This document shows positions 61,901 to 64,000 of a stretch of 64,000 nucleotides of DNA, one piece after another. The DNA lies in the NCBI RefSeq assembly GCF_019059575.1, contig NW_024881851.1, positions 136,501 to 200,500 on the forward strand, written 5' to 3'. Below the pieces are notes generated by a model. The model saw nothing but the letters and a program-made list of their open reading frames with translations, did no database searches and was not told the origin of the DNA. Position numbers and translations under genes: made by a program. The stretch comes from Amphibalanus amphitrite. Its lineage: Eukaryota > Arthropoda > Thecostraca > Balanomorpha > Balanidae. Position 1 is the stretch's first letter. Every line of letters begins with the position of its first letter.

Positions 61901-64000
61901 GGCTGGCAGATGGCGAATATCACAGACACACACACGCACACTGCACGTGTGTCGTCTACCCACGCGCAGCAGTTATCAGTTTTGTCGCTGTGTCTGGCCG
62001 CCCTGCCCCGCTGACCGCGTGTGTCCGGCAGCGCTGCCCTGTCCCGCTGACCGACCCCCCGGGTGTGTCCGGCAGCGCTGCCCTGTCCCGCTGACCGACC
62101 TCCCGGGTGTGTCCGGCAGCACTGCCCTGCCCCGCTGACCGACCCCCCCCCCCCCCCCGGGTGTGTCCGGCAGCGCTGCCCTGTCCCGCTGACCGACCCC
62201 CCCCCCCCCCCGGGTGTGTCCGGCAGCACTGCCCTGCCCCGCTGACCGACCTCCCGGGTGCGTCCGGCAGCGCTGCCCTGTCCCGCTGACCGACCTCACG
62301 GGTGTGTTGTTCGGCAGCACTGCCCTGTCCCGCTGACCGACCTCCCGGGTATGTCCGGCAGCGCTGCCCTGTCCCGCTGACCGACCTCCCGTATGTGTCC
62401 GGCAGCGCTGCCCTGTCCCGCTGACCGACCTCCCGGGTGCGTCCGGCAGCACTGCCCTGTCCCGCTGACCGACCTCCCGGGTGTGTCCGGCAGCACTGCC
62501 CTGCCCCGCCGGTCAGATATTCAGCGCGTGCGGCGTGCCGGCGGCCGGCCGCTGCGGCGCCTCCGTGTCCGACTCATGGCTCTGTGAGGAGGGCTGCGCC
62601 TGTCCGGAGGGTCTGCTGATGGACGGCGACCAGTGCGTGCCGGCCGAACAGTGCTCCTGCCGCCACAACGGCGTCCAATACCAGGCCGGCGACACCGTCC
62701 AGCAGGACTGCAACACTTGGTAATTTAGTACAGAACTGCAACACTTGGTAAATTTAGTACAGGACTGCAACACTTGGTAATTTAGTACAGAACTGCAACA
62801 CTTGGTAGATTTAGTACAGGACTGCAACACTTGGTAATCCACTACGACTGATATGTGGCAGCCATTCCAGTCTACATATGGCCTTATCCACCAATGGATG
62901 AGAATGCATTCTAAAGTTTATGTCGATGTCATTGCCGTAAAAGCAATATGCTCCTATAGTGCACTTGACATGATGTACGCACAAATCACCGAACGTTCCG
63001 TACTGCTAGGGCTTGGATTTGTATAAATCGACCTAATATATTGACAGTTTGTTTCATATGGCATCTATAGCTTTACTACTTTCCTATCAGGTGATGCTTT
63101 GATGCGACGAAGTCATGAGATGCATGCATGCATTTAATGACTTTAACTGCGCAGTGCGGCCTTAGGTGATCCCTTACCTTTTGGTCACCTTTGCTGGTCT
63201 GAAAAATAATGCTGGTGAAGAGAGCAGTGATGTGATTGGACTGAGTGACTGCGTTAGACCGATGCCGAAGCTAACCGTTGTGTTTTTCCTGGACAGTGTC
63301 TGCACATCTGGCGAGTGGCGCTGCACCGAGCTGGCCTGTCCGTCACAGTGCGTGGTCGCCGGCGACCCGCACTACCTCACCTTCGACGGACTCCGCTACG
63401 ACTTCCAGGTAACGGTCATCGTGATGTCGGTGATTGATGCCATTAACTAATAAAATGCGTAAATTCAGATAGAATTATTTCAGTGAGCTACGAGGAAGTG
63501 TTCAGCTTAGCTTTGCGATGGCCCTTCTTAGGCCGATGGGTTATCGTCACGCTGAAATTATTAGCGGAGCTCATCGGCATTTGAGTATATTTCGCGATTA
63601 TTTGATTGCATTTTAGTTTGCCTATTTGTTTATCCCAACAGCAGACAATCTGCGACCCCCGCTGACAATGCTATTTCTCGCCTATCTTCAGGGCAAATGC
63701 AGCTACTACCTGGTGCAGTCGGACCGGTTCAGCATTCAGGCAGAAAACGTCCCGTGCTCAGGAGCCATCTCAGAGGTGAGCGGAAGCGACGCCCAAAGCC
63801 GTACAAACAGTGCGGCGAGAGGATAGGTCTACCAAAGCATGTGTGGTGTTTATTTAGTCTCACAGATGTGTAGTCCGCTGTGAGATATCGCGGTCTGTTC
63901 CTGCCGGCAGAAACTCAACTACCACCCCTCGACCCTGCCCGGCGAGCCGTCCTGCACCAAGTCGGTGCGGCTCGAGTACGAGGGCGTCACCGTCGACCTG
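46825..64000 (+). CDS. Hml: Hemocytin/hemolectin-like multidomain secreted protein, 5' part
   Basis: Hemocytin/hemolectin is a very large von Willebrand factor-related protein that hemocytes secrete for clotting and wound response. The exons are 46825-46904, 53643-53929, 54359-54518, 54750-54880, 57097-57192, 57408-57602, 57855-57975, 58128-58302, 58684-58821, 59281-59416, 59833-59954, 60131-60326, 62494-62719, 63297-63408, 63692-63775 and 63911 to the edge. Every junction is GT-AG and every phase joins, giving 783 codons. In order they encode a signal peptide, a basic linker, sushi, EGF, sushi, EGF, a cysteine-rich sushi-like module typical of hemolectins ([19 protein letters not shown]), VWD ([12 protein letters not shown] to GLCGNLDGN), C8, TIL ([11 protein letters not shown] to CVPAEQCSC), and a second VWD ([10 protein letters not shown]). 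The gene runs past the window. Intron 1 is 6.7 kb and full of transposons. Several introns carry tandem repeats made from the neighbouring splice junctions. Confidence 0.9.
48235..48508. mobile_element. Second copy of the GCCGTTTTTACGACGG MITE
   Basis: The left end GCCGTTTTCACGACGGCC and the right end CCCGTCGTAAAAACGGCC match the copy inside the LTR element. The interior TTTGGTGCAGATTAGGTGCA repeat is partly shared. Confidence 0.65.
48924..49838. mobile_element. AGGTCA-type element, second subfamily
   Basis: The ends are CCCTCGCCCGTATTGG and CACGGGCGAGGGTTA. The interior matches 1898-2400 in reverse, including TTCGTAACATGTTACGAA. A short hairpin GTGAACTATAAGGGC / TTTATAGTTCAC lies near its left end where other copies have the G-run/C-run hairpin. 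Confidence 0.65.
50315..51860. mobile_element. hAT-like non-autonomous element H3
   Basis: The ends CAGGGGCGTATCCAGG and TTGGATCCGCCCCTG are flanked by a perfect 8-base duplication, TCGACTAA (50307-50314 and 51861-51868). It has no transposase. Most of its length is the minisatellite annotated separately. Confidence 0.88.
50640..51810. repeat. CAGGGGCACCACAGGCCTG minisatellite in H3
   Basis: Units of about 20-27 bases, AGGGGCACCACAGGCCTGCC and variants, repeat for 1.2 kb with an orientation switch near 51690. Long frames on both strands reflect the unit, not a gene. Confidence 0.9.
52301..53248. mobile_element. TTAA-flanked MITE carrying a copy of itself
   Basis: The outer copy begins AGGGACCCTCCCACCTTC after TTAA (52297-52300) and ends GGTGGGAGGGTCCCT before TTAA (53249-53252). 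A second complete copy occupies 52677-53142, again between TTAA sites. Removing the inner copy with one TTAA restores an outer sequence that aligns with the inner one. TTAA target duplication suggests piggyBac-type mobilisation. No coding capacity. Confidence 0.88.
53643..53929 (+). CDS. Hml: Hemocytin-like exon 2: linker and sushi domain
   Basis: The exon begins G then TTC after the acceptor GGTTCCAG. A basic stretch ([14 protein letters not shown]) precedes a six-cysteine sushi-type module from GGCDEMPD through [11 protein letters not shown] and CTGGVW to IPNC. The donor is GTGAGT. Confidence 0.82.
54019..54211. repeat. GA microsatellite in hemocytin intron 2
   Basis: A GA run of nearly 200 bases ending in (GAAA)n begins about 90 bases after the exon 2 donor. 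Purine-rich sequence starts only about 20 bases from the splice site. Confidence 0.95.
54359..54518 (+). CDS. Hml: Hemocytin-like exon 3: EGF-like domain
   Basis: The exon encodes [20 protein letters not shown] and then GFSGPTC, a textbook EGF cysteine pattern, followed by the start of the next sushi module (EQCNEPRPT). The acceptor is CTCTTGCAG and the donor is GTGAGT. Confidence 0.88.
54750..54880 (+). CDS. Hml: Hemocytin-like exon 4: rest of second sushi domain
   Basis: The exon encodes [19 protein letters not shown], then IQCTEELGW and IPSCQ. Acceptor TTTTTTTCGCAG, donor GTGAGT. Confidence 0.85.
54881..57096 (+). other. Intron 4 of the hemocytin-like gene
   Basis: Apart from the TATA-flanked element, 54881-55520 and 56863-57096 show no feature that I can support. 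Confidence 0.5.
55521..56862. mobile_element. TA-flanked non-autonomous element
   Basis: The ends GGGTAGTGTGGGGTAATTTG and CCCCACCCTACCC are inverted and both flanked by TATA. The word GGGGTAATTTGAACATA and its complement recur near both ends and at 55712-55750, where they form an internal palindrome. A 114-codon frame at 55875-56219 has no motif that I know. The TA flanks suggest Tc1/mariner-type mobilisation. Confidence 0.65.
57097..57192 (+). CDS. Hml: Hemocytin-like exon 5: second EGF-like domain
   Basis: The exon encodes [20 protein letters not shown] followed by YRGPSC, a close relative of the exon 3 domain. Acceptor TACTTTTCAG, donor GTGAGT. Confidence 0.87.
57408..57602 (+). CDS. Hml: Hemocytin-like exon 6: hemolectin-type cysteine-rich module
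   Basis: The exon encodes [45 protein letters not shown] and LPIPQC. The FNGxYNCSG and PPAAxYxCxYSTG words are what I recall from insect hemocytin/hemolectin at this position, just before the first VWD. Confidence 0.87.
57855..57975 (+). CDS. Hml: Hemocytin-like exon 7: start of VWD1
   Basis: A threonine/proline-rich linker ([14 protein letters not shown]) precedes [17 protein letters not shown], the opening strand of a VWD domain. Confidence 0.87.
58128..58302 (+). CDS. Hml: Hemocytin-like exon 8: VWD1 middle
   Basis: The exon encodes [20 protein letters not shown], then [15 protein letters not shown] and a VWD beta-strand region. The donor GTCAGT is followed directly by a tandem repeat. 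Confidence 0.82.
58303..58480 (+). repeat. Donor-derived tandem repeat after hemocytin exon 8
   Basis: Starting exactly at the donor, GTCAGTACGGAACACTGTC is followed 30 bases later by GTCAGTCCGAAACACTGTC and then by further diverged units ending near 58480. Each early unit begins with a potential donor. Confidence 0.75.
58684..58821 (+). CDS. Hml: Hemocytin-like exon 9: VWD1 continued
   Basis: A phase-0 exon of 46 codons encoding [17 protein letters not shown] and ending [11 protein letters not shown] diverged copy of its last codons and donor lies 72 bases downstream. Confidence 0.82.
58850..58900 (+). repeat. Duplicated 3' end of hemocytin exon 9 with donor
   Basis: GGGCTCAGCATGCGCTATTC followed by ACGG and GTAAGT copies the exon 9 end, GGGCTCACCGTACGCTACTC then GAAG and GTAAGA. 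The copied codons read GLSMRYSR against GLTVRYSK in the exon. Confidence 0.75.
59190..59310 (+). repeat. Duplicated acceptor and first codons of hemocytin exon 10
   Basis: GTGTGCTGTGTCTCT, a short gap, CCCAG and GATAT occur twice, with AG at 59221-59222 and 59279-59280. The codons after the upstream copy read DIIVLPAS against DMIVLHAE in the exon. Confidence 0.75.
59281..59416 (+). CDS. Hml: Hemocytin-like exon 10: end of VWD1
   Basis: The exon encodes [16 protein letters not shown], then [13 protein letters not shown], the conserved end of VWD domains. A decoy copy of the acceptor and first codons is 58 bases upstream. Confidence 0.87.
59833..59954 (+). CDS. Hml: Hemocytin-like exon 11: start of C8
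   Basis: The exon encodes [33 protein letters not shown]: cysteines and length fit the first part of a C8 domain. Confidence 0.8.
59960..60050 (+). repeat. Tandem duplication after the exon 11 donor
   Basis: CCTATTGGCACAGATGAGGG with the following AGCTCAGGACTAAGAGTAAT occurs twice, about 44 bases apart, beginning a few bases after the donor. Confidence 0.8.
60131..60326 (+). CDS. Hml: Hemocytin-like exon 12: rest of C8
   Basis: The exon encodes [30 protein letters not shown] and SWRSEEFC, the standard cysteine pattern of C8. Confidence 0.87.
60327..61984 (+). other. Intron 12 of the hemocytin-like gene, first part
   Basis: No exon is needed here because exon 12 and exon 13 join in phase. 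A GC-rich stretch at 60600-60850 has open frames but no domain or splice support. Confidence 0.5.
61985..62493 (+). repeat. Minisatellite made of the exon 13 splice acceptor
   Basis: About eleven units of 43-54 bases contain GTGTGTCCGGCAG followed by CRCTGCCCTGYCCCGC and GACCGACC. That is the polypyrimidine end, AG and first exon bases of exon 13. Unit starts lie near 62022, 62067, 62110, 62160, 62214, 62259, 62302, 62348, 62394, 62438 and 62481, the last being the exon itself. Two units carry expanded C-runs. Confidence 0.88.
62494..62719 (+). CDS. Hml: Hemocytin-like exon 13: TIL domain
   Basis: The exon encodes [25 protein letters not shown] and [17 protein letters not shown]. The acceptor CGGCAG at 62488-62493 is the last of a long tandem series of near-identical acceptors. 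It is the one that keeps phase with exon 12 and completes the CPxGxxxSxCG start of the TIL domain. The donor is also the first of five tandem copies. Confidence 0.82.
62706..62838 (+). repeat. Minisatellite made of the exon 13 donor
   Basis: Five units of 28-29 bases each contain ACTGCAACACTTG followed by GTAATTTAG-like sequence. Donor GT positions are 62720, 62748, 62777, 62805 and 62834. The first is the one placed to join exon 14 in phase. Confidence 0.92.
63297..63408 (+). CDS. Hml: Hemocytin-like exon 14: end of the TIL/linker and start of VWD2
   Basis: The exon encodes [17 protein letters not shown], then [18 protein letters not shown], the canonical VWD opening. Confidence 0.9.
63692..63775 (+). 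CDS. Hml: Hemocytin-like exon 15: VWD2
   Basis: 28 phase-0 codons reading [20 protein letters not shown]. Acceptor TATCTTCAG, donor GTGAGC. Confidence 0.88.
63911..64000 (+). CDS. Hml: Hemocytin-like exon 16, cut by the window edge
   Basis: The exon continues VWD2 with [15 protein letters not shown], then [14 protein letters not shown]. It is open to the end of the window. Confidence 0.85.

Follow-up and report, generated by a model that had tools for sequence, protein, structure and literature searches.

Mirage-like minisatellites at both ends of exon 13 of a hemocytin-like gene in Amphibalanus amphitrite

How is a coding exon spliced when its own 3' splice site is repeated some eleven times in the intron in front of it? 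This question is raised by a 64,000-nucleotide stretch of the Amphibalanus amphitrite genome (assembly GCF_019059575.1, contig NW_024881851.1, positions 136,501 to 200,500 of the forward strand), which was analysed at its full length and is referred to here as the window. Coordinates are those of the window, and positions above 64000 continue the same numbering into the 616-kb contig to which it belongs. The exon concerned, exon 13 of a hemocytin-like gene, was found to be preceded by an array of acceptor sites and followed by a second array of donor sites. Both are probably near-neutral minisatellites of the type called 'mirages' in amphioxus, with the sites closest to the exon being the ones spliced.

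The hemocytin-like gene model is sound in this region. Exon 12 (60131..60326, plus strand, as are all the gene features below) encodes a C8 domain and ends in phase 1 (...GAGTTCTGTC/GTGAGT), exon 13 (62494..62719) encodes a TIL domain and exon 14 (63297..63408) begins in phase 2, so that the three exons join in phases 1 and 2. Both Pfam domains, C8 and TIL, scored above cut-off, and the joined exon sequence has matches to FCGBP, mucin-2 and von Willebrand factor that run over the boundary between exons 12 and 13; the FCGBP alignment spanning it includes 'wrseelcpltcp', and the mucin-2 alignment likewise runs through. A protein search for relatives returned two short ENA proteins, one of which (P0001) ends in CNTWYV, corresponding to a donor at the same place, and is uninformative on the array.

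The acceptor array extends over 61998..62509, with a first partial unit starting at approximately 61998 (left edge set by eye) and an end at approximately 62509, inside exon 13. Tandem Repeats Finder called it at 62015-62509 (period 44, 10.8 copies, 87% matches, score 659), and 11 GGCAG acceptors were located, at 62027, 62071, 62115, 62169, 62222, 62266, 62313, 62357, 62401, 62445 and 62489, which bears out an earlier reading of this sequence (the original prediction) that about eleven tandem copies of the exon 13 3' splice site are present. The spacing between successive acceptors is 44, 44, 54, 53, 44, 47, 44, 44, 44 and 44 bases, so that the predicted unit length of 43-54 becomes 44-54; the two longest units are poly-C expansions. 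Each unit comprises 16 bases of the start of exon 13 (CACTGCCCTGCCCCGC), the motif CTGAC, a GTGTGT-like stretch and CGGCAG, and is therefore, as had been proposed, a 3' splice-site module joined to the exon's own beginning. CTGAC resembles a branch site and is present in all 11 units, 17-35 bases ahead of the AG. The proposed content of the unit stood in part: CGGCAG and the AG are found in 11/11 units, while CACTGCCCTG follows in only five and CGCTGCCCTG in the other six. The intron end, also proposed to be pyrimidine-rich, is not conspicuously so: pyrimidines make up 0.55-0.68 of the tract ahead of the AG (gene median, 0.64), and T is mostly scarce there.

Mean divergence among seven 44-mers of the array is 5.6%. 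Within the exon-derived 16 bases only positions 2 and 11 vary (A/G and C/T), and both are third codon positions (CCA/CCG and TGC/TGT); these synonymous variants are suggestive of past coding use, and, with two sites only, they were not used as evidence. The unit is local rather than a dispersed satellite, because most matches in the 807.55-Mb genome (2644 contigs) to the 16-mer CGGCAGCACTGCCCTG lie here: five of the seven are in the array and two elsewhere, while the same pattern written backwards gave three. No such array was seen in the 701 bases inspected around each of the two outside matches, which share another sequence context, alike in both, and a dispersed repeat was rejected on these grounds.

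The reading frame singles out one acceptor. As predicted, exon 12 continues in phase only into the last copy (C/CA, proline), and of the 55 combinations of 11 acceptors with the five donors described below only one, 62494..62719, is open and keeps the frame with exons 12 and 14. It had further been proposed that the competing acceptors would alter the protein; instead, all ten alternatives lead to a stop, including the three that shift by a multiple of three. In eight of the ten, translation would end first at the TGA contained in the CTGAC of one of the units, while use of the nearest two copies (exon starts 62406 and 62450) would shift the frame of exon 13 and meet a stop inside it. Because 44, the common unit length, is not divisible by three, consecutive units are read in different frames. 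Closely spaced tandem acceptors such as NAGNAG consist of several AGs near a single exon start. The hemocytin array differs from these in its spacing of at least 44 bases, in the branch-site-like motif that accompanies every AG and in the stop met from every alternative; none of the ten provides the alternative open frame expected of regulated tandem acceptors.

Splice-site strength was scored with matrices trained on the 69 other exons, without exon 13. The acceptors of the array scored 5.8-7.6 bits, with the real acceptor at 6.13; seven of the ten decoys scored higher, one was equal and two were lower. With AG and CTGAC intact throughout, this agrees with the prediction that the other copies are plausible acceptors. 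The splice matrix does not pick the last copy, since these seven decoys and two AGs outside the array score above it; the last copy is probably chosen by its position adjoining the exon. The association of CTGAC with acceptors extends to the rest of the gene, as it was found at -50 to -15 in 15 of 71 called acceptors, compared with 3/71 and 4/71 in two upstream control windows (pooled p = 0.0005; the 71 include exon 13 and the later corrected start at 67723). RNA structure was also considered as the selector and rejected: folding 61960-62600 gave a predicted structure in which every acceptor AG of the array, that of the real site among them, is mostly or wholly paired.

The donor of exon 13 is multiplied too, a feature absent from the original prediction. 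Five copies of ...CAACACTTG/GTA, spanning 62711 to 62836 within a minisatellite at 62703..62838, place GTs at 62720, 62748, 62777, 62805 and 62834 (periods of 28/29). Only the first keeps the frame, as the four later donors bring TGG TAA into frame.

Five further junctions of the gene are multiplied, giving seven arrays of 2-11 copies with both ends of exon 13. A second acceptor duplication (59190..59300) has two copies of ...CCCAG/GATAT 58 bp apart, with starts at 59223 (decoy) and 59281 (called); an acceptor array at 67789 has four copies with a period of about 67 bp (L008:4050-4322); donors are duplicated at 68672 (two copies, 57 bp; L008:5121-5241) and at 86198 (two copies); and a donor array at 82662 has ten perfect GTAAGTA copies exactly 28 bp apart (L009:9163-9421, equal to contig C354:219163-219421), of which, judged by frame, the first is the called donor, the next shifts the frame and the remaining eight lead to a stop. 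Across the seven arrays there are 29 alternative sites, 24 of which lead to a stop, while three (59223, 67656 and 82690) change the frame but meet no stop within the translated stretch and two (67723 and 68729) are in frame and stop-free and would add 22 or 19 residues. As a separate observation, a 42-bp duplication at 59959-60054 starts directly after the donor at 59954 and does not cross it.

To place the arrays against a background rate, a junction was scored as copied when the 24-mer across it recurred within 500 bases with 18 or more of its 24 positions matching. Exons were called with our own gene finder (a codon model plus splice matrices), which made 7 calls with a coding score above 20 in reversed controls and 77, those in hemocytin among them, on the two real strands. 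For hemocytin, 71 of 78 called exons were kept; the seven dropped were at 61973, 62120 and 62362 (touching the array) and at 88832, 89764, 90866 and 97130 (doubtful), and one exon start was corrected to 67789 (initially 67723) and the donor of that exon left out, giving 141 junctions. For the other genes of the contig, 22 of 32 printed exons were kept by eye (44 junctions), the ten omitted exons being outside the copy count. Local copies were found at 7/141 hemocytin junctions (5.0%), 3/44 junctions of other genes of the contig and 0/4 junctions of a 40-kb piece of another contig, or 10/189 overall. The corresponding rate was 3.1% for exon positions and 7.7% for non-simple intron positions (p = 0.27 for all sampled junctions against the latter), falling to 3.9% (1019/26099) once the seven junction arrays were removed. 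The local junction copies are real and above chance, because a first-order Markov control of the gene region gave only 0.045%, and a chance origin was rejected on this control. Nor is the phenomenon peculiar to exon 13, since other junctions in hemocytin and elsewhere carry copies. Locally duplicated positions made up 8.75% of 163.5 kb, and 19.8% of the 40-kb piece. The simplest account would have duplications arising in many places and persisting at those junctions whose exon-proximal copy preserves the frame.

Applied to exon 13, this account would begin with a tandem duplication spanning the intron 12/exon 13 junction and its expansion into a 'mirage'-type minisatellite, while a second, unrelated minisatellite would have arisen where exon 13 meets intron 13. 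The extra copies lie on the intron side and should be removed with the intron. The spliceosome most likely uses the last acceptor and the first donor, probably through exon definition, because the sequence of the decoys resembles that of the real sites. Splicing to an upstream acceptor, or from a later donor, would bring in a stop, and nonsense-mediated decay of such mis-spliced transcripts is to be expected because the alternative sites of these arrays meet stops; the unit length (44 is 2 modulo 3), together with the TGA in CTGAC, would make longer misreadings self-limiting. The array is thus probably largely neutral, as its extra copies should leave with the intron and its misreadings would limit themselves or be degraded.

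Arrays of this kind are already known. Amphioxus 'mirage' minisatellites lie at 5' and 3' exon-intron boundaries, occur in the globin gene BflGb6 as haplotypes with 6 and 3 units, and on the BflGb6 data seem to leave regular splicing undisturbed; exonization of their units has been put forward as a way in which new introns originate, and mirages more generally as a source of introns and exons (PMC3087553). A second amphioxus paper also states that mirages do not appear to disturb normal splicing, lists lancelet Adh (Adh3) and TnC as further cases and likens imperfect PGBD5 repeats to them (PMC3902484). The globins that carry mirages are BflGb6 and BflGb9. In both systems minisatellite copies run over an exon-intron boundary, many units hold an AG or GT, and the authentic section lies in the exon (PMC3087553, PMC3902484). 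The units in hemocytin hold intron and exon sequence of a single boundary (16 exon bases plus the intron end in 11 copies at the acceptor; five copies at the donor) and splice signals (11/11 AG and 5/5 GT), and by frame, the feature on which this point is judged, the authentic coding copy lies at the exon and the others are intronic. In their sequence features, then, the hemocytin arrays match mirages, an already known kind. They differ in that a single exon, in a hemocytin gene of another animal, is flanked by arrays on both sides (11 and 5 sites), and their copy number, the involvement of both ends of one exon and the other arrays in the same gene are notable beside the known examples. For amphioxus, length differences and undisturbed mRNA are reported, whereas the hemocytin arrays are known from the sequence of one assembly. 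Among the matches listed from the openly licensed literature, no mirages named as such outside lancelets were found. Human segmental-duplication genes contain internal tandem repeats at exon-intron boundaries (approximately 30 bp, approximately 4 units on average) through which splicing can change; those repeats were detected by comparing paralogs, with transcripts used as a check, in contrast to the single animal's genome considered here (PMC2812944).

Several observations weigh against the near-neutral interpretation. Exon 13 has weak sites for this gene, as only 1 of 69 other donors and 10 of 69 other acceptors score lower, and with weak sites at both ends the exon may be mis-spliced, or the copies may compensate for the weakness. 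Intron 12 contains 82 AGs, of which nine (the seven in the array and the two outside) outscore the real acceptor. AG and CTGAC are unchanged in all 11 copies, although few changes would be expected anyway. The junction sample is small and based on our own gene finder, and a count made array by array hints that junctions are favoured, which plain neutrality does not predict.

This last point is the basis of the best-surviving alternative, that junctions are favoured sites of tandem duplication in this genome, through mutational bias or selection for extra copies. Placement was examined for tandem-like segments only, with 88832-91216 masked and the exon from 67789 assumed to end at 67920. Of the 15-22 segments not wholly exonic, 7-9 straddled a junction, while random placement with at most 30 exon bases covered gave 2.3-3.4 (P 0.002-0.003 at three thresholds). 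When up to 60 exon bases could be covered, which is the fairer null because some observed segments cover more than 30, the expectation rose to 4.3-6.0 (P 0.06-0.12). Two of the nine straddlers are questionable (84449 is marginal and 94640 has a doubtful donor), and counted per position the junctions, in hemocytin or overall, show no clear excess over introns at either the full or the reduced intron rate. A junction preference for tandem arrays is thus hinted at rather than shown, and, even with both ends of exon 13 affected, we consider this alternative unlikely.

A functional array was also weighed, in which many weak branch-site/acceptor modules would recruit U2AF and U2 to a weak exon 13 and copy number would tune its inclusion. 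The weakness of both multiplied ends and the intact AG and CTGAC would suit such a role, but other multiplied junctions are not all weak (6.7 for the acceptor at 59281 and 8.3 for the donor at 86198) and every decoy acceptor leads to a stop; it is accordingly judged improbable.

The units might instead serve as cassette exons, which would insert a repeat peptide of 25-46 residues between C8 and TIL, comparable to the exonization proposed for amphioxus globins. GTRYGT donor-like sites do occur within the units, and 8 of 55 acceptor/internal-donor pairs form open cassettes of 75-138 bases that stay in frame through exon 14; our gene finder also placed three pseudo-exons touching the array, two of which both start and end at unit sites. 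In the eight open pairs, however, the internal donors are weak (3.0-6.8 bits against a gene median of 8.9), and the FCGBP and mucin-2 alignments have no insert at that place, so that present use of this kind appears very improbable. If the array ever changes the protein, such unit-derived cassettes would be a likelier route than competing acceptors. An assembly artefact behind the array, or behind its copy number, is scarcely credible, since the units carry point differences and several arrays of different sequence lie within the gene, although two units deviate chiefly by poly-C runs, which sequencing handles poorly.

Other repeats and elements were observed nearby. A long 10-bp minisatellite at 21012-22181, (GACTCAGACC)n, changes mid-array to approximately its reverse complement, (CTGAGTCGGT)n, forming a large inverted array, and a 20-bp minisatellite (CAGGGGCACCACAGGCCTGC) at 50863-51804 switches strand near 51689. 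On the minus strand, an open reading frame at 39299-39736 resembles, by eye, a reverse transcriptase fragment of a non-LTR (long terminal repeat) element. Near the C-terminus of hemocytin there is a 33-bp coding repeat (DPWATDGGGGA; L011:2144-2320, contig C354:232144-232320).

A bolder proposal, to which a small chance may be given, is that junctions are preferred seeds of minisatellites (about 1 in 20 of those sampled carry copies) and that some arrays are exonized into repeat-peptide cassette exons; if true, new exons and introns would be in the making within the arrays of exon 13. A hemocytin gene of a non-lancelet animal here carries seven mirage-like arrays, including both ends of one exon, and these are natural test objects for how the spliceosome chooses among near-identical sites. 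They also suggest that a genome rich in repeats can scatter copies over its splice junctions, as long as the exon-proximal site keeps the frame.

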